A DNA stretch of 64,000 nucleotides from Cephalotus follicularis (taxonomy: Eukaryota > Streptophyta > Magnoliopsida > Oxalidales > Cephalotaceae): NCBI GenBank assembly GCA_001972305.1, contig BDDD01002133.1, positions 1-64,000 of the forward strand. The letters run 5' to 3'. Of this stretch, positions 1 to 62,748 are shown in pieces; within the stretch, counting starts at the first letter, position 1, and the number at the start of each line of letters is the position of its first letter. The notes under the pieces are model-generated. The model worked only from the letters and a program-made list of their open reading frames with translations. It did no database searches and was not told where the DNA came from. Position numbers and translations under genes: made by a program.

Positions 1-525
1 CTTTCTTTCCTTTTGCAGGTGGCATATGGCAGGTGAGGATTCCTCTGCATGTTCCATGTGAGGACATGTTCAGGGCATCCCTGGCAATACACAGACATGC
101 ACAACACGTTGAATCGCACCAGAAAAGGCGTTAGGTAGCCTTTAAACAATTCCCCCTTGCATGATGTTCTGTCGACGAAGAACATGTTGTCCATTCGTAC
201 AAAAGGCGTCGACGTCTTCCCTTAGACATCGATGTCTATTCCAGTTGGTAAGAAGGTGTCGAGGCTTCCTTCCCGAGTCGACGTGCATGCCCATGCATTC
301 ACGTGTGCCCTGGCTCACAAAGGAGTCGACGTCTTTCCAAAAGACGTCGATGCCTTTCACCCAGAACGTTGCCGTTTCAAGTTTAACATACACATTCCAT
401 TTCTAAGTCCATAACTAGGGTTTGCAAGCATCTTTCGAGTTCAAAACTCAACATTATTTATTAATCCAATTTTAATATTACATCCTAAATGGAATATTAC
501 AATTAGGAAAATACCGGGCGTTACA
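1..525 (-). mobile_element. Z: end of a minus-strand Ty3/gypsy-type LTR
   Basis: The block ends in CGGGCGTTACA, the reverse complement of an LTR start (TGTAACGCCCG) shared with C and K. The sequence just after it resembles the polypurine region that precedes the 3' LTR in those elements. It carries a GTCGACGTC-type motif array at 204-355, about 170 bp from the LTR start. The other end lies outside the window. This is an old LTR fragment; the family is judged by similarity to C and K. Confidence 0.7.
204..355. repeat. Motif array, GTCGAC class (in Z)
   Basis: There are about six copies of a degenerate GRCGTCGACGTCTT word with variants such as GACATCGATGTC and GACGTCGATGCC, separated by 10-40 bases. 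The nearest copy lies about 170 bp from the LTR start at 525. Confidence 0.75.
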
Positions 526-4595: not shown

Positions 4596-4940
4596 CTGTC
4601 TAAAGCGCCGACATTTCCACTTAAAGCGTTGACGCATTGGTAGTGACGGTCGACACTTAGACCCCTTCTATCTACGCTTTAAACCAGCGCAAGGGAAAAT
4701 TGGACAAAGCCCTCAAACCGTCGACGCTTAGGGGTAAAGAGTCGACGCTTTGGTCAATGGTCGACGCTCTAAATGTAAAAGTTGACGCTTCAAGATCAAG
4801 TATTGAGGATTGACCTGGAGGAGACTTAAAGCGGCGACGCTTTGTAGGAAAGCATCAGCGTTTTAGTCGGGATTGAGGTGAAAAGCTCAGTATAAGGCCG
4901 TAACCGTTGATGCTTAGAGGTAAAGAGTCGACACTTTGCC
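4596..4940. repeat. Motif array, GCGTCGACGCTT class (A 5' LTR)
   Basis: Around a dozen copies of AAGCGTCGACGCTT-like words occur in 350 bp with variants GCGCCGACA, GGTCGACGCT and GCGTTGACGC. The array begins about 200 bp inside the LTR. Confidence 0.85.
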
Positions 4941-9396: not shown

Positions 9397-9740
9397 TAAA
9401 GCGCCGACAGTTCCACTTTAAGCGTCGACGCTTTGGTAGTGACGGTCGACGCTTAGACCCCTACTATCTGCGCTTTAAACCAGCGCAAGGGAAAATTGGA
9501 CAAAGCCCTCAAACCATCGACGCTTAGGGGTAAAGAGTCGACGCTTTGGTCAACGATCGACGCTCTAAATGTAAAAGTCGACGCTTCGAGATCAAGTATT
9601 GAGGATTGACCTAGAGGAGACTTAAAGCGGTGACGCTTTGTAGGAAAGCGTCAGCGCTTTAGTCGGGATAGAGGTGAAAAGCTCAGTATAAGGCCGTAAC
9701 CATCGACGCTTAGAGGTAAAGAGTCGACGCTTTGCCCTGT
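9397..9740. repeat. Motif array, GCGTCGACGCTT class (A 3' LTR)
   Basis: This is the counterpart of the array at 4596-4940, with more perfect GTCGAC cores (for example AAGCGTCGACGCTTT). Confidence 0.85.
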
Positions 9741-16496: not shown

Positions 16497-16690
16497 GTCG
16501 GATGGATTCTTCACCAATCGACTGTTCTGAGTAATCAGTACAAGAGTGGTCGGCTAGTTCCTTCTACCAGTCGACTTGTTCATCAGGCAATCAGCTGTTA
16601 TCCTTCAACAGTCAACTGTTTCGGTTGAGGAACCGGATGTCTTCCTTCGACAGTTGACTGTTCTGGGAAACCAGTTACGTGTAATCCAAT
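16497..16690. repeat. Motif array, CAGTCGACTG class (B LTR, distal)
   Basis: About seven degenerate copies occur: AATCGACTGTTC, CCAGTCGACTTG, CAGTCAACTG and CAGTTGACTG among others. Taking D out, the array lies about 1.1-1.3 kb from the LTR start, the same place as the GTCGACGTC array 2 of C and K. Confidence 0.75.
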
Positions 16691-23252: not shown

Positions 23253-23454
23253 AGTGGTACCAGCAGGTATCATTTCGTCCAATCTCCATTTCCAAGGAAG
23301 AAAACATCCTCCATTCACGCATGCAATTCCAGATACATTACTCACAGTGTAACATGCACAACAGGTTATCCGCGTGTATAACCAGATCATCAACCCACCA
23401 GAAATCCATAAAGTCCAGAAAGTAACATTTGCATTCTGCAGATGTTTGAAATAG

Positions 23455-23543
23455 ACATCGACGCTTAACTAAGACGTCGACGTCTATTGCCTCATCGCAC
23501 AAGGACATCGATGCTTACCACAAGAGCATCGACGTCTAAGAGT
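23455..23543. repeat. Motif array 2, GTCGAC class (C LTR)
   Basis: Four copies (GACATCGACGC, GACGTCGACGTC, GACATCGATGC, GCATCGACGTC), 1.1-1.2 kb from the LTR start. K counterpart is at 51447-51530. Confidence 0.85.
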
Positions 23544-24295: not shown

Positions 24296-24452
24296 TTTCA
24301 AAGACGTCGACGTCTTCTCTAGACGTCGATGTCTTTTCCTCTTTCACACAAGGGCGTCGATGCCTTCGTCTGCATCGACGTGCATGTTCATGCATTTACG
24401 TGCGCCCTTTGCTCCCATAGGCGTCGACGTCTTTACAAAGACATCGACGCGT
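24296..24452. repeat. Motif array 1, GTCGAC class (C LTR)
   Basis: About six copies such as AAGACGTCGACGTCTT, a perfect 16-bp palindrome. The outermost copy is about 203 bp from the LTR start. K counterpart is at 50530-50695. Confidence 0.88.
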
Positions 24453-27519: not shown

Positions 27520-27715
27520 GCTTATCTCGGTCGGTGATCAGTCGGCTCATCTCAATTGGTGATCCGATGGGTCATCTCGGTCGGTGATCCATTGGGCTAT
27601 CTCGGTGATCCCGTAGCCTCATCTCAAAGATAGCCTTGCCGGCTCATCTTAATCGGTGATCTGATGGCTCATCTCAGTCGATGATCAGTCAGCTAATCTC
27701 AATTGGTGATCAGGC
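27520..27715. repeat. Minisatellite in D 5' LTR
   Basis: Imperfect copies of the CTCATCTCGGTCGGTGATC unit, as at 17815-18005. Confidence 0.85.
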
Positions 27716-28189
27716 ACAGTACAGTACATTGACACTACAATACATTTCATTAGCATTACACTAACATTTCAATAACACTACAGTACGTTGACAATTCACT
27801 GTGTGGTCTGCCTTCATTATGCTATCTTCCATCACATTGTATTTACACTACACCTATTCTCTAATCATATATTCCACTTCATTTACTGCACTTATCATTC
27901 ATACTGCACTTATACACCCTTTTCTATTAATATATACACTGAGCACACAATCACGTTATGAGGCATGCAACCGAGTACTGTTTAGTGTTATAAGAGGTTC
28001 CATGCTTCATGTACACTGTTCGACACTTTAGGGGCATGCACAGGCTGCATGAGACACACTGTTCGACATATACATGCATGGATGCATGCAGGTGCTATTG
28101 AGCAATCAAGATGCAGAGGACGCATAGTACAAGTTAAGGCGCCCACGTTGGGATACGTGTTCTAGGCAGTGCTCGTCCTCATGGCATGG

Positions 28190-28935
28190 CCGAATGGAGG
28201 ACTCTATTGTGCACCCCTGGAGAGCCCTGGTACTGAGCCATGCTTGGGGCGCCTAACAGACGAGCTCTAGCATTCAGTGTTGTATCCGAGGGTGCATGCA
28301 GGGGGTGACACAAGCATGGCGGAGGACAACGCATGCTTAGGACGCATGCTTGGCTCAGGGGCACATGCTTGGGGTGCATGGCAGAGGATCACTCGACGCG
28401 ATTGCATGCCCGCCATTGCTCTCTTGGACACATAGCAGAGATGGACACATGCGTTGGGATCTCGGGATACGTAGCAGAGGACTAGCTCGACATAAGGCAT
28501 AAGGAGAAGGGTTTATGGCACACCTCGGATGGCATGGCAGAGGAGAGTTCTGGTCCGCCCAAGTGGAGAGCTCTGGCACATGTCAGAGGAAGCCATAGTT
28601 GGCTTCTCGAACGCCAAGCAGAGGAGGGCCATGGCGTTTGGCACCTCGGCGGTTTGGCATTGGAAAACACTCGATTGCGTGCATGTTGAGGAAGCATGCA
28701 GAGGAGAGCTCTCATTGCTGTTACATGCATGCATGGCAGAGGACAGAGAGCTCGGTCGGTCGACTTTGCATGCTGAGGATGCGCGTACAGACAGAGGAGA
28801 GCTCGGCATGTACGGCGGCAATGGTAGAGGAAGGTGAGTTCGCATGTACGGTACCATATGGCAGAGGAGAGTGCTTCGGGGTTGAGGCATGCTTGGGAAG
28901 CATGCAGAGGAGGACAAGGCATTGTGGCATGATAC
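28190..28935. repeat. Irregular GCAGAGGA-rich block, D 5' LTR
   Basis: The copy of the block at 18480-19215. Confidence 0.75.
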
Positions 28936-29463
28936 GCTAGGGCGTGTGGAACCTCGATTGCGTGTCCTTAGAAGCCAAGGTACATGACACTGGCGTCCTT
29001 GGCATAGCTCTCCGGCACAAAGGCACCTGGGTTCCCTGGTACCATGCGTTTCTCTGCACAATGGTTCCCTCAGACGCATACATTTGGAAGCTTTGGACAC
29101 ATTCACCGAACGCACGCATTAGGGGAGCTTTGAGCGCATACGTGCTACATTTCGAGTACATGCTCCAGGTGCTAAGGTGCGTGATGATAGCGTGTGTGAA
29201 GCCATAGGACGCCATCTTTACTTTAAGGCTAAATATATACTATGTCTAACACCCATCAATCACAGAGGACCATAAATTTCATGAGATTCAGTTTACCATG
29301 TAATCCTTCGTATGATTCTAGCCTATTCTTTATTACATACTATTTATAACAGTACATAGTAAAAGAAAAGGCACTGAGTAGGAGTAGTTCCTACCTTGAA
29401 TCCGACGAGATTGCTTGTACAATTTCCTTTGCTGCTCTGCTCCTCTTCTAAAATTTCCAAGTT

Positions 29464-31705
29464 GCTTGTGATAGAATCGGATTAACCAATTCCTATGCCA
29501 TAAATGGATTAAGGTGTATAGGGTGTAGAAAAAAATTTTATATAACAAAATATGCAGTGGAAGAACACCCAGTAAATGCGAAAACACTCCATTATGGCTT
29601 GACCACAGGCCACATGGATCACCACATCAACACAAGAGTTGAAATGGTGTCACCATAGCAAGTAATGGTGACACACAAACTTGGGAACTAGAGAGGGAGA
29701 CAAGGAGATATACCTACGGGTGTTGGCTCCTTCATCTTTGTCGTTACTAGCTTGTGAAGACTCCTTCTTTACTGCCCTCCAAAACGTTCAGCTACTACTC
29801 CCAGAAGATGCACACCAGAAGGAAGTAACAAAACAGTTTCCTTATGCACTCTCTCTCTCTCTCTCAAAATTTATAAAAAGGAAAATTGAGTTTGATTAAT
29901 GCAATAAAAAATAATCTACCCTAGATAAGTAACTTGCTTGGTGTTTGTAGGTGAAAGAAAATTCTAAGTGCAGAGGGAATACTCTCCTCGTTTTGCACAG
30001 CAAAAACCCCAACAATAAAAAATGAAACATTTTCTGCACAAATAGCTTCTCACCAACCCACATTCCCTCTCTCCCACTCTCCCATAAACATGGGATCACG
30101 GTCCTCACGCCCAGGGAGTCTGTAGCCATGTTCCCCACGTTTCCATAACGTGCATTGATGGGAGAAACCTACTGGAGATGTCAGAGAAAACGTGCCCATG
30201 AAGTGAGATCGTGCACAGACTACACAACCCGCGCTAAGTGTCGACGCTTTCAACAATAGCGTCGACGCTTATGGATTACATGGCACTAAACGTCGACGTC
30301 TTTCTACAAGTCATCAACGCTATATAAGCCTTAAGCGTCGACGCTTCCCTGAATGCGTCGACGCTTTGTCTAAAGGAATGTGCTGACGCTTTCCCAGAAG
30401 GGGTCGACGCTTTGAATGGTATATAAAGCATTTTGAGTATAAGTCCAACTTATTCAATCCCTTCTAATATTGATTAAGTAAGATCAAACAAATGTGTTTC
30501 CACAAAATGCAAAACCCACATAACCGATATTTGACACCAAGACTTAATATGTCTAACATATTAAAGAACTAATCATTATTGGGCAGGGACCCTATAAAAT
30601 CTTGGTTAAAACCGGAGGTGTTCATAAATTACAAAAATACCCCTATGATTCGGTTTAGCCATTCTAAATGGTCCTAGACCAATTTAAATTCTCTCAGACT
30701 AATATCTAATATTATCCAGATGGAAAAATCAATCTAATTAATTTTTCCATAATTTATTACACACCTCATTAACCCTAGATTTTCTAAGTTGTCGGTTCAC
30801 GTGTACTATAATCCCTTGTCATACTTGGCCCCGATTGAGGTCTAGGGTAAGGATATGTGTCAACCCTGGATAATACCTCAATGGCTAAAATATTTGATCA
30901 TTACTAGGACCTTTGGTAAACTCTCTGGAAATCTAATTTACAGTCTACCTTAACCTTGGCCAAGGATTTCATGAGTCCAAAGTATAATCAGATCATAATA
31001 GAGCCGATCACCTTCGCTCAGGTGTGACAATCCCATATTGCACACTCACTTATATTCGTATAGATTCGATCATACCCAAAGACCACCCTATTGCCAGCCT
31101 TGCGCAAGGACTGGGTGAGGTGGAGATCAAAGCATAACCGTTTCCATACAATATAGAGCAGTCGCTCAGGTCTAAGGATCAGACGAGTTTGAGAACTTGC
31201 TAAGTGATCATCACTTATACATGACCGCAGCAAGTAGAAGTCACTACTGACACTAGAATAGCGACTATCCAAAGAGTGTCTCCTACGTGGGTCCTGTTCA
31301 GTGTACACGCTCCCAGCACGCGCCCCGTATTTGCCCTAGTGTCCAACACAGATGGTAGTGAGAGAATCCATCCTCCAATTCCATGAGCAGACAACATACG
31401 CGCAAGTCTATCCGGTTCACTAATGCCCACAAAGTTAACCTATGACTTGGAACTAATTTGACATAAGGAATAAGGTAACCAATCTCATAGCCTCCATGCT
31501 AGGCATCCAACCTTATGTCAGGACATCACAAGTGTAAGCAGGTAAATAATAAACTACTTCAATTAAGTGACAAAACACAAGTGATATAGCCATAATAAAA
31601 TTAGCACACATCATATATACAAGGAATAAGATTGTTTCATACAAGATAAGATATAATATGACAACCCATCTAATGGCTTGTCGGGTCACTATATCTAATA
31701 GCTTG
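29464..31705 (-). mobile_element. E: solo LTR with GCTTG target duplication
   Basis: E occupies 29469-31700 (2232 bp). GCTTG occurs at 29464-29468 and 31701-31705, and the host LTR reads continuously across it when compared with 19720-19735. No interior is present, so it is a solo LTR. Its right end matches the LTR start at 63656 in opposite orientation and parts match F. A GCGTCGACGC motif array lies at 30238-30416. Confidence 0.85.
30238..30416. repeat. Motif array, GCGTCGACGC class (in E)
   Basis: About seven copies including GTGTCGACGCTT, GCGTCGACGCTT and GTGCTGACGCTT. Unlike the gypsy LTRs, it lies far (about 1.3 kb) from the LTR start. Confidence 0.8.
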
Positions 31706-32634: not shown

Positions 32635-32787
32635 CAGTCGGTTGTTCTTCCTCGACAGTCGGCTGTCCTCTTGGCTGTGGTTGCCAGGTGGCTCGACAGC
32701 CCTCCAATCGGCTGGTTCGTCCTACCAGTCGACTATTCCATTAAACGGTCCACCAGTCGGTTGGTCTATTGCACCAGTCGACTGTCC
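32635..32787. repeat. Motif array, CAGTCGACTG class (B LTR, proximal)
   Basis: About six copies including CCAGTCGACTG, ACAGTCGGCTG and CCAGTCGGTTG. The nearest is about 150 bp from the LTR start at 32939. Homologous LTR C carries GTCGACGTC words at the matching place (24296-24452). Confidence 0.85.
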
Positions 32788-45130: not shown

Positions 45131-45555
45131 AGACGTCAGGGTACTATGTGAAGCTAGTGTTCTGGTAGTCTTTGATATTACTGGCCTAAAACTACTTCAA
45201 TAACCAAATACCTTCACACGAACGAAATTCAGAACATACAACACCTCATACAACAAAACGTAACGTACTAACAAAACGTAGTACAAAACACACAAACCAT
45301 AGTACACATACTTCTTTCGTAATTTTCATATCAAATTTCTTAGTTGCCAATGGAATTCACAGCTACCTACGGAATTTCGTAGCTGATCACGCGGTTGTGC
45401 TAAGGATTTAGCTGTTCTCGTTTATGACAACCTAAAACGGAATATTAGAACCAAAACTTTCGTGTATTGAACAAACAACTACACTTCCTTACGAATTTGT
45501 TTTGTATGCTCATTTTATCATTCCAGTTTTGTCCGTTTTATACGTCTTGTCAGAA

Positions 45556-46020
45556 AAACCGCAGTTGCGGGTATAATATATGCAGTTGCACGACCCGAAC
45601 TCGTGTACAAAACCCGAAACGTTCTACTAAGAGCAGTTGCACAAGAAATAAGAGCAGCTGCACGACCCCTAACGTAATAAGCGCAGTTGCGGTATCCCTT
45701 CTACAGTTACGGTTCTACACGTTAAACCTGTCATCGGAACCTGCAATTACACTTCTGAAAAATCGCAGTTGTGGATACTCCTTCTGCAGTTGCGATAGTA
45801 ATCTGCAGTTGCGTTTTTCCTACGAGTATAGAGTTCATCGTAACCTGCAATTGCGTATTTCTTCTGCAATTGCGAGTGTTTACTGTAAATACAGTTGCGA
45901 TACTTATGCGCAGTTGCATTTATTTCGTTCTTATCCTATCACCGTATACCTCAATTGCGCTTCTTGGTAACTTCAATTGCGTGTTCCTGTATCTGCAATT
46001 GCGATAAGCATTCGCAGCTG
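45556..46020. repeat. Motif array, CAGTTGCG class (M2)
   Basis: About 18 copies of GCAGTTGCG with variants GCAATTGCG, GCAGTTGCAC, GCAGCTGCAC, GCAGTTGTGG. Spacing is roughly 18-50 bases. CAATTG and CAGCTG cores are themselves palindromes. Confidence 0.9.
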
Positions 46021-46350: not shown

Positions 46351-46594
46351 ATATATATATATATATTGTTTTAAAGATATAAACTGCCATGCATAATGAC
46401 ATTCATATATTCGTACTCATGCATATTTCCTACTTAGCCAAGTGATGACAACCACTAACCTCTACAATTACAATATATATATATATATTGTTTTAAAGAT
46501 ATAAACTGCCATGCATAATGACATTCATATATTCGTACTCATGCATATTTCCTACTTAGCCAAGTGATGACAACCACTAACCTCTACAATTACA
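46351..46594 (+). repeat. Exact tandem duplication, 122-bp unit
   Basis: 46351-46472 and 46473-46594 are virtually identical. Each holds an AT run, the GCATAATGACATTCATATAT stretch and block 1. M1 and M3 have one copy, so the duplication is private to M2. Confidence 0.92.
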
Positions 46595-47284: not shown

Positions 47285-47350
47285 AACCGACTATTTCCCT
47301 GATCCAGTCGACTGTTTCAATAGCCAGCCAACTGGCCAAAAATGTCTAGT
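47285..47350. repeat. CAGTCGACTG-class words upstream of L's ORF
   Basis: CCAACCGACTATT, CCAGTCGACTGTT, CCAGCCAACTGG and CTAGTCGAGTG within 65 bp. Confidence 0.65.
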
Positions 47351-47452
47351 CGAGTGTTGATACGGGAATCAGGTTTTAAAAACCGATTTTTCCCTTCTCC
47401 CCAAAACAAAACTCTATTTTCCCCTCTCCCTAAAACACTCCTACTGATATTT

Positions 47453-48142
47453 ATGGCTTCTAAAAAGAGGAAAAGTGTAGGAACTTCCAAGAATGTGAGA
47501 TCATCAAACCCTGTGATTGATTTCGATGATGATCTCTTTCTCTCCAAAGAAAATGAACAAAGGTATCATTTAGTTCTAAATTATGTTAAGCTTCAAAATG
47601 AAAAATGGTTAGATAATGATATGTGTATGAGAAATATTGCTTCTATTAAGTCTTGGCTTGAGAATATGGGTTGGTTTGATTATTTGTGCTCATCCCACAA
47701 CATTTGCCCTAGGCTAGTGAAACTTTTCTATGCTAACTTAGAGAAAACTACTACTTGTGTTGCTAAATCCTTCATTCTTGGAAACCATGTTGAAATTTCT
47801 CTGGACACCATTGCTGAAGTATTAGCAATTTCTTGCTCCGACATCACTCACTTTAATTACATAGAAAAATTGGATGCCTTAGAAATTTGTCTTGAACGAT
47901 CCGATTTCAATCCTCTCATAACAATTACTAGTATTCATCTTCCCATTGCCACTTGTATTCTCTTGCTTATTGTCACAAACACTTTGTTCCCTAGAGAAGG
48001 CTCGCACACCTTACCATCCGAGCGAGACCTTAAACTAGTAGCTTGTATCAAAAATGGCACTCTTGTTAACCCTCCTTATCTCATTATTAACCACATGCTC
48101 TCTAGGCCAAACCACATTCCCTATCCTATGCTCATTAGTAGG
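47453..48142 (+). pseudogene. L ORF region, upstream of K
   Basis: An open frame begins MASKKRKSVGTSKNV and runs to the K insertion (about 230 residues). It includes FLSKENEQRYHLVLNYVK, LVKLFYANLE and a hydrophobic stretch LPIATCILLLIVTNTLF that could be a membrane segment or a buried helix. The RLVKLFYANL pattern recalls proteins annotated as 'putative plant transposon protein' (PF20167-like); this is from memory and unverified. Its position just before the 3' LTR is where some Sireviruses carry an extra, env-like ORF. Alternatively it is a domesticated or host gene. K's first bases extend the frame artificially beyond 48142. Confidence 0.5.
48138..48142. repeat. Target-site duplication of K, left copy
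   Basis: GTAGG precedes K's LTR start (TGTAACGCCCG). GTAGG also follows K at 53661-53665. Confidence 0.93.
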
Positions 48143-48678
48143 TGTAACGCCCGAGATTTTACACGATGTAATATTTCAATTTTATTGAAATATTATTATT
48201 AAGTTAATGAGAATGGCATAAATTTTGACTTGAATGGTGCTTTCCGAAATGTAAAGGGTTAAAGCTATTTCGGGAGCTGCTATCTGAAGGTTGTTTAAGC
48301 TATTTTTTATTATGATAATCCTACTCATGTTGGAGTGGATGATGTTTTGTACTTGTTCAATTTGGATATTGTATTTGGGGTTTTGGAACAATGCTTTGGT
48401 AATTGATTTATATATCTGAACTTCTCTATGCAAGATGTTTATGGTTTAAATGATGGTTATATCACGCTTCGTTTCTTGAGCAGTTAACAATGATGATGTT
48501 TTGTTGTAACACGTAGTATGGGATGCGTGTTACGATTGTTAGTTCGGCTTATATTTAAAGGCTTCCGCAACTGATGTACCTGTTTAATAAGGTTTAAATT
48601 TATCGTAAAATTGGTTAAGCCGAATTATTTATGTTAATTGCTATCGCCATATGTCTTTTTGGAAAACGGGGTGTGACA
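48143..48678 (+). mobile_element. K 5' LTR
   Basis: 536 bp from TGTAACGCCCGAG to AAACGGGGTGTGACA. Block 2 is at about 48505-48533. It is much shorter than the 3' LTR but matches it at both ends. Confidence 0.9.
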
Positions 48679-48681
48679 AGA

Positions 48682-48693
48682 TGGTATCATAGC
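48682..48693 (+). promoter_or_regulatory. Primer-binding site of K
   Basis: TGGTATCATAGC, three bases after the LTR. tRNA-Met type with one difference. Confidence 0.8.
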
Positions 48694-48791
48694 ATATATC
48701 CATTATATGCTTAACCTGGATAATTTCCTTGGAAATTAACGGATTGTTTCCTTGAGATGACTACTAATGACATCTTTTCCATATAGGAACA

Positions 48792-49961
48792 ATGGACAGA
48801 AGGAGAACGCGTGCGAGAGCTAGAGCCGCTGAGGCCAATGCCCCCGGGGCGGCGAATGTTCCACAAGGAGTGAATGTTCCCCATGATGACAGAGATCCGT
48901 TGGTGCGCATTGCGGATTACTTTCAAAAGCAGATGGCCTTTAATATGGCTAATGCGGAGGAGATGCACCAACACTGCGCGCAAGCCCAACCTCGACATAG
49001 AGCTCCTGCTCAGTGTGACCATGAATATGGGAACGCTTTTGGGAAAGGCTTAGAGAGATTCATGAGGCAGAATCCTCCTAGCTTTCGAGGAGAACTAGAT
49101 GCTACTATTGCAGAAAGATGGTTGCAAGATCTGGAGAAGATCTTCGAAGTTATGGATTGTACCGAAAACCAAAAGCTGAAATTTGCTGTCTACCGGTTAT
49201 GGGGCGAGGCCATCCACTGGTGGGAGATGGTCAAGGCAAAGTGGGAGTCAACTGGACTCAATAGTACATGGGAGAGATTCCAGAGAGAATTTCTTGAGAC
49301 CTATGTTCCTCATATCGAACAAGAACGAAGAGAGATAGAACTTCTGGAACTGAGACAAGGAGAGATGACCGTGGCTGAATACCAGGCCAGGTTTATGGAA
49401 CTTTCCAGACACTCTGCCTATCTGGTGGCGGATGAGGAAAAGAAAATTCGAAGGTTCCTAAGGGGTCTGCGACTGGACCTTCGGTCAAGGATTAGAGCAA
49501 TGGAGTTGGGAACTTTTGTAGAGGTTGCCCAAAAAGCAAGATTACTGGAAAGCATAGCAAGTGAAGACCGCGCTGAGAGGGCTCGTACACAACAGAGCAA
49601 CCAAACTTCTAAGCAATCTAGGCCGGCTTCATCTAAGTGGCAAAACAGTGATTCTCTGACAAAATCGACAAATAGTTCATCTCAGCAAACTGCTAATCAG
49701 GGCACTCCTAGTCAGGGGAGTAATGCTAGGATGGGAGTCTGTCCCCATTGTGATCGCAAGGGCCACCAACCGGAGGATTGCTGGTGGAAAAATGGAGCAT
49801 GTATGAAGTGTGGAGCACCTGACCATTTAAGGAGGGATTGTCCGATGAAGCAAGTGACAGTGCCCACTGGGCCTGCAGGTGATGGTGGTGCTACGACTGG
49901 ACCTTCGCAGCGGAGAGATACCGGCAAGGGCGTCATGAGAGGTACTTTTTACTATCTATGA
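48792..49961 (+). CDS. gag: K gag polyprotein, 389 aa
   Basis: A complete ORF from MDRRRTRARARA to VMRGTFYYL. Gag is the structural protein that assembles retrotransposon particles and binds RNA. Residues about 90-200 form the Retrotrans_gag-like region (NPPSFRGELDATIAERW, LEKIFEVMDCTENQKLKFA, ETYVPHIEQERREIELLELR). A Ser/Gln/Thr-rich linker follows (about 265-310). Two CCHC zinc knuckles are at C317-C330 (CPHCDRKGHQPEDC) and C337-C350 (CMKCGAPDHLRRDC). The start is chosen because C and B share the same opening and because it lies just after the primer site, as expected for a leader. No protease follows. Nearest relatives in the window are C and B gag. Confidence 0.93.
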   Translation: MDRRRTRARARAAEANAPGAANVPQGVNVPHDDRDPLVRIADYFQKQMAFNMANAEEMHQHCAQAQPRHRAPAQCDHEYGNAFGKGLERFMRQNPPSFRGELDATIAERWLQDLEKIFEVMDCTENQKLKFAVYRLWGEAIHWWEMVKAKWESTGLNSTWERFQREFLETYVPHIEQERREIELLELRQGEMTVAEYQARFMELSRHSAYLVADEEKKIRRFLRGLRLDLRSRIRAMELGTFVEVAQKARLLESIASEDRAERARTQQSNQTSKQSRPASSKWQNSDSLTKSTNSSSQQTANQGTPSQGSNARMGVCPHCDRKGHQPEDCWWKNGACMKCGAPDHLRRDCPMKQVTVPTGPAGDGGATTGPSQRRDTGKGVMRGTFYYL

Positions 49962-50315
49962 TACATTGTTTTATCACATGTTGAAATTGTTCTTGATTTT
50001 TTGAACAATCAAAGTCGTGATTGATTGAACGTTATGGTGTTAAGCTAGAACCTTTGAAGGCTAAACTAGTAAGTACAAGGATAGATAAACGCTGACGTAA
50101 CAGTCTAATGAATGATCGAATGGTGGTTCGAACGATCGAGAGAATGAACGACCATCGCTTAGGTCGAATCTCATGAAAGAGACTTCGAGAGGAGTCAAGA
50201 TCATCAAGAAGGAGTTAGTTGTGGCACTGAACTGATAGAAAGGTTAACAGATGGTTGAGGATGATACCCTTAATCATCCATAGTATATTAAGGAAATTCG
50301 AGGATGAATTTCTTT
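49962..50315 (+). other. K interior between gag and polypurine tract
   Basis: Non-coding and matching C 20006-20375. It holds ATCGAATGGTGGTTCGAACGATCGAG-like words with imperfect dyads (about 50112-50140). I see no pol remnant. Confidence 0.75.
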
Positions 50316-50329
50316 GAAGGAGGGTTGAT
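50316..50329 (+). promoter_or_regulatory. Polypurine tract of K
   Basis: GAAGGAGGGTTGAT directly before the 3' LTR. Confidence 0.85.
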
Positions 50330-50529
50330 TGTAACGCCCGAGATTTTGTACGATGTAATATTTCAATTTTATTGAAATATTATAATTAAGTTAATGAGAA
50401 TGGCATAAAGTTTGACTTGAATGATGCTTTCCAAAATGTAAAGGGTTAGATCTTGGAAGGAGGAATGATGGAGATGTTAAAGAAATTCTAAAAGGTGCAA
50501 TTAGAGGCAAAACGGTGCAGTTTTGGACT

Positions 50530-50695
50530 AAACGCATCGACGTCTTTGTAAAGACGTCGACGCCTATGGGCGCGAAGGGCGCATGTAAATGCATGCACAT
50601 GCACGTCGAAGCATACGAAGGCATCGACGCCCTGATACAAAGAGGAAAAGACATCGACATCTAAGTAAAGACGTCGATGTCTTTCAAAAGGATAT
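50530..50695. repeat. Motif array 1, GTCGAC class (K LTR)
   Basis: About seven copies including GCATCGACGTCTTTG and AAGACGTCGACGCC. Starts about 203 bp inside the LTR. Confidence 0.88.
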
Positions 50696-51446
50696 CAGTC
50701 ATGTTATGAACTGATAGAATAACGTGCAAAGGAAGGGGAAATCCAAGGCCTTGCAGGCACCAGATGCAACGTGTTGTGCATGCTAGAATGTTACCAGGCA
50801 TGCAACAGAACGTGTCCTCAACCTTGTGCATGCAAAGGGCACACATCCTCACCTGCAAATGCAGAAAACAGAGAGGAAAAGATCAAAAAAGAGAGAAGAA
50901 ATCAGGGAGAGAAGGAATGGGGAAATGGAACATGCAAATGCATGCAACGTGAATAGTGATGAGGGGAGAGAGTTCCCTAGAATAAATTCTCTCTCTTCGC
51001 TGCTTGTCTGGTTAAACACCTGAGTGTTAACAAGGAAAGAAAGAGACAGTGAGTGAGGAGAGGGAGTTTTGCCATTACTGGACCAGTGGAGCTTTTGGAA
51101 ACTTGGAGCTGGAGGCTTGCAACAACGAGAGAACCTTGGAGCAGCTGTGATCAACCCTTGGAACACAAAGAGGTGGACTTTCAAGGTTTCTAACTTGAAA
51201 CCAGAGGTAGGGGAAGTATATGTGCATTTTGAGTTCAAACTAATGTGTTTCCATGAATGAAATGCATGAATTGCATGCTGGTTGGGAGTTGAACTAAATG
51301 TTTGATTGATGATATGAACACCTGTTGGTGTAGACTATATATGCATGTTGATTTCTGGGTGAATCCTATGCTTGATTGTATGTGTATATGGGTTGAGTAC
51401 CCCTGGTTGTGGATAGAACGAAAGAGACAGTGTTCTGGACTCTTGC

Positions 51447-51530
51447 ACGTCGATGCTTTTGTGATAAGCATCGATCTATTTAGGCGATGAGACGATAGAC
51501 ATTGACGTCTTTGTTAAGCGTCGATGTCTA
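51447..51530. repeat. Motif array 2, GTCGAC class (K LTR)
   Basis: Four copies (CACGTCGATGC, GCATCGATC, ACATTGACGTC, GCGTCGATGTC). Confidence 0.82.
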
Positions 51531-51729
51531 TTTCAAACATTTGCAGAACTACAACGTTTGCTTCTGAACTTGTGGACTTTTGATGGGTTGATGATTTGGT
51601 GTTACATATGGATAGCCAGTGGTGCGTGTTACGCCATAAGTGGTGTATCTGGGAATTGTATGCACGAACGGAGGAGGGATTCTTCTTTGAAATGGAGTTT
51701 GGTTGTGGTGACACCTTCTGGTACCACTT

Positions 51730-52000
51730 AAGCATCGACGTCTATGGAAGGTATCGATGTCTTTGGTTTCCATGCATCAGGTCTTGTACATAACGCGAGG
51801 ACGTGTTAAAGTTCCTATCTTAAACGTCGATGCGTTGTGATGAACGTCGACACCTAAGGGTTTTGCTTCATAGGCATCGACGCCTACAGAAAAAACGTCG
51901 ACGCATTCATACTGTTTCAAGCTGTGACTTTGGGAATGAACCTCGACGCTTTTGGGGCAATGGACATCGATGCGTTTGGGAAAGACATCGACGTCTTTAC
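51730..52000. repeat. Motif array 3, GTCGAC class (K LTR)
   Basis: About nine copies including GCATCGACGTC, AACGTCGACGC, GACATCGACGTC. Confidence 0.85.
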
Positions 52001-52611
52001 TCCTGGGTTGTATGGTTTGACCCATTTTGGACCCGTTAGCTCCGGAACGATTCTAGAAGCGACCCTAGGCATGTTTGAGCATATGGTTGCATTTAATACC
52101 GCTGTGATTTGCTTTGTTGTGATACCGCATGATTTCTTAAATGCTCTAGATTTGAGAAATATGCATATGATATTGTGTGGAAATATATTTATTTCCTAAA
52201 AAGGACTGTACAAATGATTTCAAATACTTGAAATTATGTATACAGAAATAAGTAACTTCAAAGGATTAAATACTGTACAAAGACTAGTTATACATTTTGA
52301 ACAAATGTAGTATTGTCAAGTATTTTATACATAATAAATTACTTGGAAAATGTATTTTGACGGAAATAAATATTTTCCAAAAAGGATTGTGAAACGGTTC
52401 CACATAACTAAAATTATGTTATACGGACATGAGTATTTTGAAGGATCGGGTATATTTTTTAAAATATATGATTTCCAAGTATTTTACGATACACTAACTA
52501 CTTGAAAAGGCTTGAAAAGGGACCCTTGTATTTTGGGCAAAACATATATATATGTTACAAGAATTTATACTTATAAATTGCTTGAAAAGGATTGTGAAAT
52601 TTTGATCACTA

Positions 52612-52945
52612 TTAAACCCTGTTGGGTGAGTAGCTGAAAACAGTAACCTGTGTTAAAAGGACTAATGCCCATTTGGGATGTTTTGTTGCATGTATTTCTT
52701 ATGTGTTAATTAATTACTTGTGATGGCTTGTTTGGGTTACTAAACTCTGTTGGGTAAGTAGCCAAGAATTCCACTACTGAGCTCTGTTGGGAAAGCAGTT
52801 GGAAGTTCCGTATACGGTAGTCACTAAGCTCTATTGGGTAAGTAGCTAGGGTTTCCCACAAAATGGTTACTAAGCTCTATTGGGCAAGTAGCCGGGGAGT
52901 CCCATTTGGATGCTAAGCACTGTTGTGTAAGTAACCGGTTGTAGA
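52612..52945 (+). repeat. Minisatellite in K 3' LTR
   Basis: Six or so imperfect copies of a 40-60 bp unit around ACTAAGCTCTGTTGGGTAAG. C's LTR has no clear counterpart where the N gap lies, so the gap may hide it. Confidence 0.82.
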
Positions 52946-53170
52946 GCCTGGGTGTCAGCAACTTTAATATGGCTTGATGGGTCCTTAGTGACCTGATCGT
53001 TGTATCTGTCCCTTTGGGGACAGTCTTGTACTTGTGTTATTGTGACCCTCGGGTGATACCTGCTTGCGGATGTATATATGTGTTCATGTATATCCTATGT
53101 TATTCACGTACTGCATCATGAATGCATTCATTTCATGACATTCATTACTTGATCCCAAATGTATTTTATG

Positions 53171-53222
53171 CTTAGCCGAGTGAGGACAAAGGCTAACCCC
53201 CTACTTTTTCAGATTGACAGAG
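53171..53222 (+). promoter_or_regulatory. Conserved LTR block 1 (K)
   Basis: GCTTAGCCGAGTGAGGACAA, then AGGCTAACCCCCTAC, then TTTTTCAGATTGACAG. The CTAAC plus pyrimidines plus CAG looks like a 3' splice site. Confidence 0.75.
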
Positions 53223-53660
53223 ATAATCGGACAAGTGCGGTTAAAGCTATTTCAGGAGCTTCTATCTGAAGGTTGTTTAAGTTGTTTTGTATTATGATAA
53301 TCCTACTCATGTTGGAAAGGATGATGCTTTGTACTTGTTCAATTTGGATATTGTATTTGGGGTTTTGGAACAATGCTTTGGTAATTGATTTATATATCTG
53401 AACTTCTCTATGCGAGATGTTTATGGTTTAAATGATGGTTATATCACGCTCCGTTTCTTGAGCAGCTAACAATGATGTTGTTTTGTTGTAACACGTAGTA
53501 TGGGATGCGTGTTACGATTGTTAGTTCGGCTTATATTTAAAGGCTTCCGCAACTGATGTACCTGTTTAATAAGGTTTAAATTTATCGTAAAATTGGTTAA
53601 GCCGAATTATTTATGTTAATTGCTACCGCCATATGTCTTTTCTGAAAACGGGGTGTGACA

Positions 53661-53665
53661 GTAGG
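53661..53665. repeat. Target-site duplication of K, right copy
   Basis: GTAGG, identical to 48138-48142. Confidence 0.93.
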
Positions 53666-54145
53666 ATTCTAGCTTCTCTAAATCTTGATATATCAGATGA
53701 GCACCTTGTTAAACCCAAAACTAAGCAACTCAGTAACAAAGTCGGTCTTAAAATTTGCAATATTGAATTTGCGAAAGGATTATGGGTAAAGCAGCCAGTG
53801 ACAGGGAAAGCCCCCATGAGGGAACCTGGTGTTAGAATTGGTGGTGATGGTGATAGAGATGTAGAATAAGAAGAGCAAGAAGATGAGGGACATGATTTTG
53901 AAATGCGGTCGTATGTTGCTGGAGGGACTAGTTACGGAGGTAGTAGACCTACCTTGGATTCACTCCAAGCAAGGATGGATTTGGCTCAAGCAACCATTGA
54001 CTACGTTCGAGGAAAAGTGGATCAAATTTATGACAATCAAGCTACTCTCATGACTCGCCTCGATGCTCAAGATGCACAGATGGCCCAAGTGATCCATATG
54101 CTTCAAAATGCCTATCCACAGCACTATCCTCCCGGATCCTCTTGA
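53661..54145 (+). pseudogene. L ORF region, downstream of K
   Basis: Coding-like sequence resumes after K. It includes DEHLVKPKTKQLSNKVGL and a C-terminal part with LDSLQARMDLAQATIDYV and TLMTRLDAQDAQMAQVIHML, a pattern suited to a coiled coil, ending YPPGSS. An acidic linker lies between. It belongs to the same fossil ORF region as 47453-48142. Confidence 0.5.
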
Positions 54146-54707
54146 GCGATATCACATTCATGTTATTTTTACTTTTAGATTGATTATGAAATGCACTTGT
54201 TTTATAATTTGACTTAATTCTCTCTTCATATTTCTAGCTTCCCTACATAGCCATCGGGTATGTGTTGATGTTTCCTTTTTACAAGATGGAAAATTCTTGG
54301 TAAAAAGATGGAAAACTCCTTATACATATTCTTAGAATTGATTTTCTCTACTCATTCATCTCTACATTGATATATAAATTGAGTATCCAATTGTTAAGGG
54401 GGAGCTTTTATGCTTAAACACATGCTTCAGTTAAGGGGGAGCTTAGTTATCTCTTTGGTTAAATAGGAGCTTAGTTATCTTTTTGTTGTTTGACAAAAAG
54501 GGGAAGAGTCTATATGAATTTTGTGCTATATGAATTTTGTTGTGGCTATATGAATTTTTGTTGCCAAAAAAATTTGTACTGTATGAATGTTGTTGTGGCT
54601 ATATGAATTTTGTTGCTCAAACACTTTGATAATATGCTAGACTTGTTAAGTTTGCCAAAAGTATGCAAAATTCATTATGTTTTATCAATCATAAAAAATG
54701 GGGAGAT
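54146..54707 (+). promoter_or_regulatory. L 3' non-coding region with multiple purine tracts
   Basis: AAGGGGGAG occurs at 54396-54404 and 54433-54441, AAAAAGGGGAAG at 54495-54506, and AAAAAATGGGGAGAT just before the LTR. Multiple polypurine tracts ahead of the 3' LTR are a described Sirevirus trait. CTATATGAATTTTGTTG recurs three to four times between 54510 and 54615. Confidence 0.7.
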
Positions 54708-55846
54708 TGTTGGCCTTTGCCACCCCTTTAGATATTTTAAAATTTGATATTTCGATGATTAACAAACATGGAATACATGTATGCATATTTTTCTAACTTA
54801 CAAACTCATATACATACTTGAAATAATGTCCAAGGTGTTGCAAAGCTCAAAAATTTAGGTGCAGACCAAAACAGCCGATTGCCCAAGATGAACAGCAGAC
54901 TGTCTTAGATTAGAAGCCAACTGCCTGAGTTTGAACAGCTGACTGGAAACACAAGAAATTCCAGAAACTGGAATTGCACCTCATCTAGTCGACTGGAACA
55001 GGTCTCCAGCAGACTGTTAAGGTAAAACAACTGACTGCCAAGAATAGCTAGCCGACTGTCCAATTATTCCAGTAGCTTTTTGGATATCCTCTCTACCTCC
55101 ACCAGCTGACTAGAACAGGGATCCAGCCGGCTGTTTAGGTAAAATTGCCGACTGTCCAAATCCACCACCTGACTACCAGAACCAATGGCTATAATTTGGA
55201 AAACGCGCCATCAGCTCCAGCTGACTGCCATGATTGTCCAGCCGACTGAAATGGTTATGACTTTTAAAAATAGATCCATTGGAGGATGTCTTTACAAGAA
55301 AAAAAGGGGTATCTTCCTTCCTTGCATGATAGAAAAAGTTCTCAAGTCTTTCAAGAACAAAAACGCAACATCCACAACACTTTCAATAGCCAAAGAGATC
55401 AAAAATCCAAGGAATTCTACATATTACAAAGCATGTTATTCTTGTAACTCATATCATTAGACCTTTGTTTGTATTGAGATAAATTGTAAACAAATTCTCT
55501 GTGAATTTGTAAACACTAAACACATTCAATCACTTGTAAACAAGAGAGGTTGTCCCTTGTATAACTCGGTTGGAGGAAAGATTGTAATCGCTCAGTTGGA
55601 GCAAAACTATTGAAGCTCGGTTGGAGTTTCAAGCCCGGTTGGGGCATACTAGTGAAATACTCAAGGGGAGGCCTTGGGGAGTGGACGTAGGCGGTTTGCC
55701 GAACCACTATATATTTGTTTGCAATTCTCTCAACCTTACACTCTTTAATTTTTTGCAATTGTGTGTTTGTGTTAATTGAATTATTTTGTGGTATTATTGC
55801 TAGTAATTTTTATAAGTCTATTCCCCCCCCCTCTAGACTTCCTACA
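54708..55846 (+). mobile_element. L 3' LTR (Sirevirus-like)
   Basis: Starts TGTTGGCCTTTGCC after the GGGGAGAT tract. It contains a CAGTCGACTG-class array (54868-55252), CTCGGTTGGAG repeats (55566-55640), the CGGTTTGCCGAACCAC hairpin-like word (55691-55706) and a C8 run near the end. The end at CCTACA is tentative. About 1.14 kb, a normal size for this clade. Confidence 0.65.
54868..55252. repeat. Motif array, CAGTCGACTG/CAGCCGACTG class (L LTR)
   Basis: About fifteen copies (ACAGCCGATTGCC, CTAGTCGACTGG, CCAGCCGACTG and others). Starts about 163 bp inside the LTR. L is Ty1/copia-like, so this is outside the gypsy families. Confidence 0.85.
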
Positions 55847-58712: not shown

Positions 58713-58895
58713 GTGTGTCCTTTTGTAATAACCGCAATTTCAATTTGATGTATATTGATCCGATTATTGAAATAAAATATACATTTTAATTGAATTATTG
58801 TCCAATTGTTATGATCTTCTGTGGTTATTTATGATTGAAATGGATTGGGATTCAAATTGGGGAAAAACCGAACTAAGAAACCCTAATTTCACCTT

Positions 58896-58984
58896 GACAG
58901 TCGACTGCCATATACGAACAGCCGACTGCCTGACTCGTGGAACGTCCAGTCGACTGCCTGATGAATCCAGCCGACTGTAATTTC
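58896..58984. repeat. Motif array 1, CAGTCGACTG class (M3)
   Basis: Four copies (ACAGTCGACTGCC, ACAGCCGACTGCC, CCAGTCGACTGCC, CCAGCCGACTGT), 172 bp from the LTR start. Confidence 0.88.
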
Positions 58985-59994
58985 GACAGGACATGTGTCT
59001 GTGCAGGTGTCATCTGATATTAGGCGTGGCCTGCATGGGAGACAGGTGTCCTAAGCTGCCATTGCATGCAAGTAGAGGCCTTGCATGTCCTCTGCTCCAC
59101 CTGCATATGCAGAACCTGCAATTTACATGAATCAAGAAAGAAAAGAAAGAGAAAGACATGCATGAGAGGAAGAGAAGAAATGTGAGAGAAGAGAAATAAA
59201 GGAATCTGACAAAATTTCAACTATTAGGACCTTTATATCTTCTGAAAATGAATTGATAAGGGTGTTAGAAACACTAAACATTAAAGAAAATTGCAAAGGG
59301 TTGGATTGAGAGCTTGTATTGGAGAGTTAGGAACTTCAAGCTCAAAGAAGGAAGAGGAAGCTTGTGACTCCTCCTGGTAAGTTCGATTCTGACTTCCTGA
59401 ATTGTAGTATGATAATAAGGTATCTAGGAATGCTTAAGCTTGTGTTATATGAACATGGTTAGCATTTCTAGGATTGAATGAATTTAAAATAGAATGAGGC
59501 ACTTTGGTTCAAAATGTGAATGATTACCCTCTAAATCTGAATGTAGTGTTATAGTTACCATGATAAACTACTGAATTTCTTATGAGTATATATATCTACT
59601 GATCACTAAGAGAAAATGAATAGGGATAGTAGAGAAGTGCATAAGAGGAGATAAAAGAGAGTTAAATGAGCTTAATGAATTATGACTTAAGCTACTGAAA
59701 TTAATGGATAAATGTTACTGAATCTACTGGTTACTGATGCATGCACCTATAACATGCATAGATTGAACCTCTGAGATTAAAGGATTGATTGTGAAAGCTT
59801 GGAAAAGTGAGTTGGGAGCTTAAAGAGAAAGATCATTCAATTGATCTTGGGATAGCATATTGAGGTAGGGGTAGTGTTATGTATTGGAAGATATGTTCAT
59901 GCATGTTATGTATGTTGAATTTCTCATTGCATTGTATTGATTTGAATACTGAATTGCATTATAAAACTGGTCTGCCTGCATTTCTGGGCAAAAC

Positions 59995-60070
59995 CAGTCG
60001 ACTGGCATCAAATGCAGTCGACTGCTATACCCAACAGCCGGCTGGTTCTTGAGTGCAGCCGACTGTTCTG
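59995..60070. repeat. Motif array 2, CAGTCGACTG class (M3)
   Basis: Four copies (CCAGTCGACTGG, GCAGTCGACTGC, ACAGCCGGCTGG, GCAGCCGACTGT), about 1.27 kb from the LTR start. Confidence 0.88.
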
Positions 60071-61334
60071 GGCTGAATCTGCATAATGATCAATGAATTG
60101 TTACTGTTTGCATTGGTGTTGATTTGTACATGTTACCAACATAATGCACATACTGTATGATGCTAGTTAACATCATTACTACTAAATTGTCACTGATTGA
60201 ATGAATCATGTGCTATAGGCCCCAATTATGGTTTTAAACCTCCTTCAATTGCAAACTACTATTTGCAAGAACTACTGATTTGATTAAAGCTACCGTATAT
60301 ACTACTTATGATAGTATATACCTACTGTATGGTGATACTTAACACCATTGTTACTGATATTTCTATAATTAAACAAGATATGTGCTATATGCACAAATGA
60401 TGATTTTAAACATTACTTTCAATGAAAGTTATTATCTACCAAAAATTACTGTTTTGATATATGCTATTTATATTAGTATATATTTACTGTTTTGGTGATA
60501 TGAACAACACTTCTACTGATAATTTCAAGATCAAAATCATTTATGGAACTTGAAACAAAAATCATGATAGTTCACTATCATTTTCAAAAGAAGCTTATGG
60601 TTGAGATAAACCACTGATTTATCAATTATTGATTGTGAAATACTATTTTCACCTACTGTTTAGATTCTAATTATTGAATCAACTGAGTGGTACATGCACG
60701 ATTTATGATATTTACTATCATTTTCCAAAGAACGTTATTGTTTAAATGAACTACTGTTTTCCTCCACTTGAGAGGTATCGACTGTTTTGTTTCCGCATTG
60801 GAAACCACTGTACTGATATCGTTTCCTCATATGAGATGCACGATCACTAAATGTTTTGTTTCGAAAGAAACCATTGATATTGCATATTGATTATATATGT
60901 AATATTACTACTGATTGTACAGATTGAATTGATTGTCTATGCTACTGCCGTAGTTCGGTGATGGAGGTTATCACTGACTATGGATGTGATCCTGGGTGCC
61001 AGGAGTTGGCCAGAGTATCACCTACTGTGTGCACATTGCAGAATTACTGTTAAACTACCCGCCAACGCCGGTAGTAACTAATACCTTTTCTATCATTCTC
61101 GGAGTGTAGGGTGATAGTTAGGTGGTGCACAGTTGGGAGCTAGGAGTTAGCGACATGTGACACCCAAACCACTGAACGACTGAATTGATTGTACCCTTGT
61201 GCGGTATCTTTGCATATGTACTGTTTATGGCCACTTGGCATGACTGCTCTATATTGGCCACTGAACTGATATTTTGATATAAACTGTCATACATAATTGC
61301 ATTCATATATTCTTCTGCATACACTATCTTCCTG

Positions 61335-61382
61335 CTTAGCCAAGTGAGGACAACGGCTAACCCCTACCATTACAGATTGAGC
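61335..61382 (+). promoter_or_regulatory. Conserved LTR block 1 (M3)
   Basis: GCTTAGCCAAGTGAGGACAA then CGGCTAACCCCTACC, ATTACAGATTGAG. Confidence 0.72.
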
Positions 61383-62404
61383 AAGGACATTTGGAGCTTG
61401 CTGCCGAAGCTTCTGGAAGCTTCTGTTTATCGTTTTAAGGTTGTTGTTTTACTGTATTTCCGTAGTGTAATGAACGAACGAATCACACCTTGTTTACTGT
61501 TGTATTCCTTATGATAAGGATATTGTTGATCTGTAACCGCACGTAGTATGGGATGCGTGCGAAGACTTGAACTTTATACATTCTAGCTTATTGACTATTT
61601 TCCGCATACTGTTTTATACTGTTAAAAGTTATGCTGGAATGTATGTTTAATACTGATACTACCACATATGCTGGTCTTTGATGGATTGAAATAACGGGGT
61701 GTGACACCTTTTCCTTCATATGACAGATGAAAGCGTCGATGCGCACTCTAGGCATCAACGTCTGTGAGACCATAACAGCGTCTCTTCCACCGTATTCCAC
61801 AACCATGTGACAAGACAATGGATCTAAGCAAAACAAAACATGCATTACTTAATCCATACTCACCCAAAATAGCATATGCATAACAGGTTATGATTCAAGA
61901 CAAACCACAACCCACCATTTATGCATTTCATCAAACAACTCTTATTATAACTGAACTCAGAGATATAGTTATATGATCCCTGCCTCTGATTCCAAGTTAG
62001 GAATCGAGGTCCACCCCTTTAAGGTTTACCGAACAGTAGCTTTGAGCTCCAAGATCCGGCGTGGTAGTTCCAAGTTCGAGCCTCCAAGTTCCTAGGTTCA
62101 ATAATGGAGAGATATAACTTCCCTCATTTCTCACTTCTCTCACTGTTTCCTTTCTCTTTCAGTGGAGGTAGAAGAAGATGAATATGAGAGGTGTGTTTTA
62201 TGGAGGTTTCTCTCCCTCTCTCTTTCACCCGCAAGCAAGGCGCTATGCATCTCTCTCTCTCCTTCTTCTCTCTGCCGACATGACACCCATAAATCACTTC
62301 CTCCTCACTTTCTGTCACTGCAGAGCATAGGGAAGAGATAAAATGTCTTACACATGCTCGTGACGCGTCTTCTATCAGCTTTTTAACTTATTCTGCCAAC
62401 AGAT

Positions 62405-62610
62405 TTAGGCGTCGATGTCAACCTTAAGCGTTGATGTGTTGACCTTCTTCTTGTCGCTAACAGGTTCCTCAAACCGCGTTAACACCCACCTCTTTTTGCT
62501 CTCCATCACTGGATGTCGATGCCATCACTTTTCGTCAATGCCTTAAGACAAGAAGCCTTAAGCGTGCCTCATTGTTCCTTGGCATCAATGTCATCTCTTG
62601 GCATCGACGC
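62405..62610. repeat. Decayed motif array near N's start
   Basis: GGCGTCGATGTC, GCGTTGATGTG, GCGTTAACAC, GGCATCAATGTC and GGCATCGACGC occur here. If N starts near 62748 this is about 140-340 bp inside. Confidence 0.65.
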
Positions 62611-62748
62611 TCAAGTGCCCCTTTCCTTTGCATTTCTCAATTCAATGTCACTCCTTAACACTTTCCATTCAAAATTCAACATTAAGCTGAAAACACATAA
62701 TTCTCATTAATTCATCATTTAATTTACAATAGGAAATACAATAATACA

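Follow-up and report, generated by a model that had tools for sequence, protein, structure and literature searches.

In a 64,000-nucleotide stretch of the Cephalotus follicularis genome (assembly GCA_001972305.1, contig BDDD01002133.1, positions 1 to 64,000 of the forward strand; hereafter the window), which is full of nested long terminal repeat (LTR) retrotransposons, we found arrays of short, near-palindromic words close to the start of LTRs of both the Ty1/copia and the Ty3/gypsy type. The arrays lie at a nearly constant distance inside the LTR, advance mostly in steps of about 21 bp, are nearly all built from a single class of words and, for one class, read in one direction with respect to the LTR. 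We consider it moderately probable, judging from these sequence patterns, that they are putative platforms in the U3 region for the binding of a dimeric, direction-sensitive DNA-binding factor. An initial annotation of the window had proposed a binding-site cluster in U3, a methylation target or RNA hairpins; a binding-site-like cluster, present in both superfamilies and with class-specific words, is the proposal that the patterns described below appear to favor.

The sample consisted of the window and 28 stretches of 10 kb (344 kb in total), plus 20 LTR heads of 0.8 kb, and the genome searched comprises 1.58 Gb in 9,746 contigs. LTR starts and ends were located by terminal signatures and repeats. 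As heads we took the first ten entries from each of two whole-genome lists, one of 2,998 copia-type heads (17 for the backwards control) and one of 722 gypsy-type heads (none for the backwards control); they were unselected for arrays, were not drawn at random, and represent families fitting the two chosen head patterns. Heads starting with TGTTGG were called copia on the basis of a polypurine tract and LTR start that we take to be typical of copia elements, together with stretch L025, and the gypsy identity of the others means likeness to the head of an element of the window named K. Two classes of words predominate, A (CRTCGAYG) and B (CAGYCGACTG), both near-palindromes, while class C (CGCARTTGCG) is found in one array and class D (AAGCG....CGCTT) in one head (L033). 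The commonest words are CAGCCGACTG, CAGTCGACTG, CATCGACG and CGTCGACG, and most words are without a CGG-CCG core. Perfect palindromes alone were abandoned: exact 8-mers gave at most 4 repeats per 800 bp, too few, so that near-palindromes were needed. The dyad symmetry initially described is imperfect, and class B has a fixed direction.

The arrays are nearly pure in class. In the window and the 28 stretches, 50 of the 53 clusters with a close pair hold a single class, and minority words amount to 5 of the 320 assigned. Clusters 0.6-1.6 kb apart agree in class in 12 of 13 pairs, although these 12 are not independent, several sharing a locus or being LTR copies of one element; the thirteenth pair spans the LTR start at 58724. 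The class can nevertheless change between related LTRs: the head of the LTR starting at 32939 on the minus strand resembles that of K, yet class B words replace those of class A. In L025, which carries a copia gag, the LTR clusters consist of class A words, each also with 2 class B matches.

Scoring as an array at least four words of a single class with one neighbor at 18-22 bp, we detected arrays in nine of the ten copia heads and eight of the ten gypsy heads, against 32 of 336 random windows of the same length that themselves contain LTRs; within the first 350 bp the figures are 8/10, 8/10 and 15/336. The first class B word is centered at 181, 169, 169, 169, 170, 169 and 170 in the copia heads and at 171, 166, 160, 168, 173 and 170 in the gypsy heads, and the first class A word at 147 and 159 (copia) and at 210 and 144 (gypsy). 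Seven copia heads contain 13-19 class B words and two more contain 8 and 10 class A words, while gypsy heads have 6-8 words, mostly 6, in the 789 bp read. Among the three heads scored without an array, L033 has another word class, and in L039 and L041 the array is cut after two words. In L041, an apparent nested LTR head (TGTAATATCCC) follows directly after the second word, and arrays may be insertion targets. Genome-wide, a copia head with CAGCCGACTG centered 151-181 bp inside the LTR gave 1,396 matches (one head can match twice) versus 7 for the backwards control, and among the first 100 matches listed the word centers at 169 in 48, at 170 in 35 and at 168-171 in 89. The initial observation is confirmed and extends across the genome; 17 of the 20 sampled heads have an array. 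Starting from the arrays instead, we examined 49 arrays of at least four words and found an LTR head 120-270 bp outside the first word in 15 of them, one further match (L008) looking spurious; no head was found for the remaining ones by the signatures searched, several of these being second, distal arrays of an LTR.

In the window, the arrays lie where they had been placed initially. The offset of 150-205 bp then given applies to several of the LTRs, not to those starting at 4396 and 9161. The relevant features are as follows:

173..348, minus strand: 6 class A words, in a gypsy-type LTR starting at 525(-), offset 177.
4630..4908, plus strand: 6 class A words, in an LTR starting at 4396, offset 235.
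9426..9725, plus strand: 8 class A words, in an LTR starting at 9161, offset 266, with four neighbors at 21 bp.
16499..16655, minus strand: 6 class B words; LTR end signature at 15152, start not placed.
24308..24445, minus strand: 6 class A words, in an LTR starting at 24655(-), offset 210, with distal words at 23012-23530.
32639..32779, minus strand: 6 class B words, in an LTR starting at 32939(-), offset 160.
45394..45998, plus strand (direction uncertain): class C array (CGCARTTGCG) of 14 matches, several 19-21 bp apart; LTR start not found.
47288..47351, plus strand: 4 class B words with spacings of 21, 20 and 22 bp, at the start of an open reading frame (ORF) of family PF20167.
48143..53660, plus strand: element K, Ty3-type, with GTAGG flanks on both sides and only gag seen between its LTRs.
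48143-48678, plus strand: 5' LTR of K, short (536 bp).
48771-49961, plus strand: gag of K (Retrotrans_gag / Ty3_capsid).
50330..53660, plus strand: 3' LTR of K (3331 bp), starting with TGTAACGCCC after a polypurine stretch and ending with GGGTGTGACA; its end matches 48257-48678.
50538..50675 (centers), plus strand: proximal array of the K 3' LTR, 6 class A words with spacings of 20, 49, 18, 30 and 20 bp, the first center 209 bp inside.
51451..51989, plus strand: distal class A words of the K 3' LTR, 14 in one count, two groups of 4 and 9 in another.
54708..55243, plus strand: head of a copia-type 3' LTR, TGTTGG after GGGGAGAT, with 13 class B words (centers 54876-55243), the first 169 bp inside.
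58724..61706, plus strand: gypsy-type LTR with class B arrays at 58902-58972 (offset 179) and 59999-60060.
62413..62605, minus strand: 6 class A words; the initial annotation put the LTR start near 62748, and no terminal signature pointed to it.

Element K is inserted into the PF20167 ORF (47324-48202) of an apparent copia-type element. At 46351-46594, a 122-bp unit stands twice head to tail with 100% identity, either a recent duplication or an assembly artefact.

The second shared property is the step. A count independent of the words, made over the 344 kb, gave 14, 20, 36 and 4 pairs of similar near-palindromic 10-mers at 19, 20, 21 and 22 bp, against a background of 3.5 per spacing on average at 25-100 bp (highest 12, at 41 bp), and the peak at 19-21 bp is also seen in the window alone and in 200 kb of sampled genome. 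In the whole genome, pairs of GTCGAC 10-40 bp apart number 224,538 versus 3,925 for the backwards pattern; the GTCGAC density of 332 per Mb in the 280 kb sampled leads, by arithmetic, to an expectation of ∼5,400 pairs. Among the first 100 pairs listed, all from one contig, the distance is 19-22 bp in 81 and 27-28 bp in 10. The spacing of 10-50 bp suggested at first therefore has to be replaced by one of mostly 19-22 bp, with wider intervals of about 28-31, 49-52 and 60-66 bp separating groups of words. Neighbors in class B arrays are 20-22 bp apart in 85 of 112 cases in copia heads and 18 of 32 in gypsy heads. The copia arrays of class B are mostly arranged in fours (21, 21, 21, then ∼50 or 62 bp) and the gypsy ones in twos (21, 28, 21, 50, 21), and the layout of gypsy class A arrays (∼20, 49, 18, 30, 20) is a near mirror of the latter. 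In class B, spacers are 0.346 identical within an array and 0.279 between loci (0.26 expected): their length is held while their sequence is nearly free.

Class B words are also oriented. In LTR sense they read CAGCCGACTG or CAGTCGACTG, and the flipped form CAGTCGGCTG is nearly absent: in copia heads genome-wide it has 2 matches versus 1,396 for CAGCCGACTG, and the 13 class B arrays of the sampled heads, in both superfamilies, hold 99 words of the CAGCCGACTG type versus 1 of the CAGTCGGCTG type, every array leaning alike, in addition to 53 symmetric TA forms and 4 CG forms. Eight clusters in six LTRs gave 31 to 0 for the favored direction, with 9 words having both changes and 18 neither. Class A leans likewise (30 of the CATCGACG type versus 13 of the CGTCGATG type). 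Strand composition as a cause is excluded for the gypsy arrays and for copia class A. In gypsy class B arrays the spacers of the sense strand are G-rich (skew +0.29) and the words C-rich (-0.12), so that the words oppose the skew of their surroundings and base composition does not cause the direction there; in copia class B arrays, words and spacers lean alike. A mutation bias is unlikely to be the cause in class A, as the word changes between the LTRs at 4396 and 9161 are 6 C/T and 5 A/G, while class B offers only 3 such changes (L027), too few for this check. In the class C array at 45394-45998, most words read CAGTTGCG or CAATTGCG on the plus strand; if the LTR lies on that strand, the bias there is opposite and compatible with G.U pairing, and the sense-strand rule is therefore not universal.

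The words further bear a signature of selection. Between the two LTRs of one element, words differ at 11/100 versus 17/439 positions of the spacers, 3/40 versus 10/234, and 3/100 versus 15/1155, thus changing faster in all three pairs (ratios 1.75-2.84; a fourth repeat pair, in which no words lay, was left out). In all 12 comparisons between families, 10 of them overlapping, the words lag behind the spacers in rate of change (ratios 0.16-0.74). With three comparisons on each side, the between-family ones being two of K with 24655 and one of 58724 with L005, 18 word and 140 spacer differences between families stand against 17 and 42 within elements (Fisher p 0.0033). Words were recognized by a pattern match in either sequence, which slightly favors conservation in both sets. 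Since the words evolve more slowly between families and faster between LTRs of the same element, we conclude that they were under selection.

Taken together, these properties, namely a two-turn step, a strict direction and signs of selection, favor DNA-binding sites. We propose that each near-palindromic word would be bound by a protein dimer in a preferred direction, and that words two helical turns apart would place neighboring dimers on one face of the DNA, allowing cooperative binding upstream of the LTR promoter. The copia and gypsy lineages would each, independently of one another, have come to carry the same word in this slot; both superfamilies would therefore answer to the same factor or to one factor family, and related LTRs that switched from class A to class B would have switched to another member of that family. 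We infer that a protein binds the words, that it acts as a dimer and is shared, and that its effect would be activation or protection from silencing, not repression. As candidates we would presume AP2/ERF (GCCGAC core), bZIP (TGACG) or LBD (CGG-CCG) proteins. A bolder version, tentative and in our view rather doubtful, is that copia and gypsy elements compete for or share one dimeric protein family through a standard U3 strip (first site at ∼170 bp, 21-bp steps, a single direction and a word that serves as an exchangeable address), the one-way C.A substitutions being the scar of a pressure that keeps the palindrome in DNA while weakening an RNA hairpin that feeds small-RNA defense.

The words could instead act in RNA, as hairpins in LTR transcripts whose stems would feed small-RNA production or aid packaging, which had been among the initial suggestions and which we regard as improbable. 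Near-palindromic neighbors are able to pair; in 16 of 17 cases the sense array is more stable than its own shuffles are on average, in 8 of them by more than 2 standard deviations (single-base shuffles, 40 each); and small RNAs of maize map in excess to the palindrome clusters of Sireviruses (PMC10760457). Yet the favored sense form of class B produces C.A mismatches, with 8.33 of 10 positions pairing in sense and 9.44 of 10 in antisense (104 pairs), and sense folds are less stable than antisense folds in 16 of 17 arrays. Class B neighbors have no pairing advantage over other words from their array (8.350 versus 8.295, P 0.22), although one inner position reached p 0.012 when words were re-paired across loci, and the 3-bp flanks match a little better than they do after re-pairing (1.78 versus 1.53 of 6, P 0.013). 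As these pairing tests fit hairpins poorly, what is conserved in class B is most probably a site in DNA. Class A shows covariation between neighbors at two inner positions (0.68 versus 0.51 and 0.56 versus 0.37, both p<0.002), and weakly at some outer ones; the likeness of the words as direct repeats also exceeds its null there, so that family structure may cause both signals, and the choice between DNA site and RNA hairpin is ambiguous for this class. An equally improbable explanation would make the arrays docking sites by which the host recognizes and silences LTRs, through a repressor or the recruitment of methylation, to no profit of the elements. The words are CpG-centered, and the 6 C/T and 5 A/G changes between 4396 and 9161 are all transitions, as the decay of methylated CpG predicts; yet the words are kept between families, and a purely harmful array would be expected to be lost, whereas 17 of 20 sampled heads keep one.

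The likeness of copia and gypsy arrays would also follow if one U3 module had moved between the superfamilies by recombination or template switching, position and spacing being inherited with it. Word and direction are the same in both, the offset is nearly so, and the best identity of masked copia and gypsy units is slightly above the shuffled mean (0.49 on average, with a maximum of 0.55, versus 0.42). This best identity remains below the shuffled maximum (0.61), however, and no likeness of class B arrays beyond the words was detectable between copia and gypsy heads, first spacers being 0.31 and the upstream 20 bp 0.30 identical; BLAST matches between them are short (up to 47 bp) and cover the words and their spacing. 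The grouping is also unlike, in fours versus twos, and we hold such a transfer to be quite unlikely. The gypsy heads, which the initial annotation counted among unrelated families, are not wholly unrelated, being homologous to one another over about their first 60 bp. Passive tandem duplication of a functionless 21-bp unit appears still less credible, and very improbable overall. It would explain why spacers are more alike within an array than between loci, slightly in class B and more so in class A, and is opposed by the near absence of relation among class B spacers of constant length, by the selection signature and by an offset nearly equal in two superfamilies.

Several observations weigh against the proposed binding platforms. 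Class A spacers are 0.477 identical within an array and 0.344 between loci (0.27 expected), so duplication is possible there, and class A offsets scatter from 124 to 266. A 10.5-bp periodicity agrees with the two-turn spacing, although it is not independent evidence, being produced in part by adding up 21-bp steps, and a 7.0-bp period outscores it for class B over distances of 25-110 bp; as gaps of 28 and 60-66 bp are not whole turns, the data do not support clean phasing of every gap with the helix. Within the 790 bp read, the last word is followed by TATAWA in 5 of the 10 copia heads and 1 of the 10 gypsy heads. A one-way asymmetry is odd for a simple homodimer. Finally, the genome-wide counts of offset and direction concern copia heads, the gypsy figures coming from the sampled heads, and because the gypsy heads are related the coincidence between superfamilies rests on two lineages.

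A named feature does resemble the arrays, contrary to what had been thought initially. The RM boxes of Sireviruses (Ty1/copia) are palindromic, occur in at least 8 copies per element, begin 200-400 bp inside the LTR and lie in its upper half, with a TATA box downstream and extra copies upstream of the env gene; they are called Sirevirus-specific and absent from classic copia elements (Bousios et al., 2010, PMC2829016). Their TCGA-core words in Vitis (CGGTCGACCG) and Tnd-1 (ACAATCGATTGT) are like those found here, and nine copia heads have at least 8 dyad-symmetric copies. The window's copia-type element is similar, with class B words both in its LTR and at the start of the PF20167 ORF, where the four words would correspond to the boxes preceding an env-like gene, in this one element whose env position is itself presumed. 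Yet RM boxes are carried by Sireviruses, so that the gypsy arrays do not fit (L025 has a copia gag and K a Ty3 gag); the first copy lies at 147-181 in our nine copia heads; the CGG-CCG core is missing from most words here, as also from Tnd-1 in the 2010 paper; and the passages describing RM boxes contain no 21-bp step, strand direction or selection test (PMC2829016). In maize, Sirevirus LTR palindrome clusters are read as RNA secondary structures and templates of small RNAs, with no obvious structure peak in Ty3 elements (PMC10760457), whereas here Ty3-type LTRs carry arrays and the sense strand pairs worse.

Other systems are more distant. The targets of VANC anti-silencing proteins in VANDAL elements are likewise arrays of short words in the non-coding DNA of transposable elements, there bound by a protein, and the word varies between related elements, as it does here between LTR 32939(-) (class B) and K (class A); they belong, however, to Arabidopsis DNA transposons, the protein is known and element-encoded, and 'palindrom' is absent from the paper (PMC5735166). 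The CpG islands of Del elements are CpG-rich variable stretches in the 5' part of Ty3/gypsy LTRs, yet the paper contains neither 'palindrom' nor 'repeated motif', and its eudicot group is without a CpG island (PMC4029996). The short interrupted repeat cassettes (SIRC) of Arabidopsis combine short repeats with unrelated DNA between them, many in mobile elements, but are direct repeats of 10-29 bp, ∼57% of them without palindromes, with no fixed place in LTRs described in the available passages (PMC10342631). No description of arrays in Ty3/gypsy LTRs or of a 21-bp step was found in the open-access literature, at the level of titles, abstract starts and some passages. As far as these searches reach, what is new comprises the 21-bp step, the strictness of the direction, the signs of selection on the words, and the presence in gypsy-type LTRs of arrays with the same words at a near-equal offset. 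Sirevirus palindromes are discussed, in the texts covered, as possible regulatory boxes or RNA structures and have no binding factor assigned to them there. Arrays of the same words also in Ty3/gypsy-type LTRs point to a regulatory input on which two superfamilies of this genome would both depend, and two words 21 bp apart represent a concrete probe for finding the putative factor.

Some further repeats were seen beside the arrays. Other near-palindromic repeats mostly resemble AT-rich or tandem-repeat noise. Stretch L003 has 13 matches of GTTTCGTAAC at 9498-9831, some of them 21 bp apart, possibly a further word class, and L001 has a tandem array at 300-630 with a 27-bp unit containing TCCCCGGGCA. 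In the window, positions 17077-19731 and 26771-29469 form 2.7-kb direct repeats, 9.7 kb apart and 90% alike; nine copies of GCAGAGGA are found within ∼800 bp in each.

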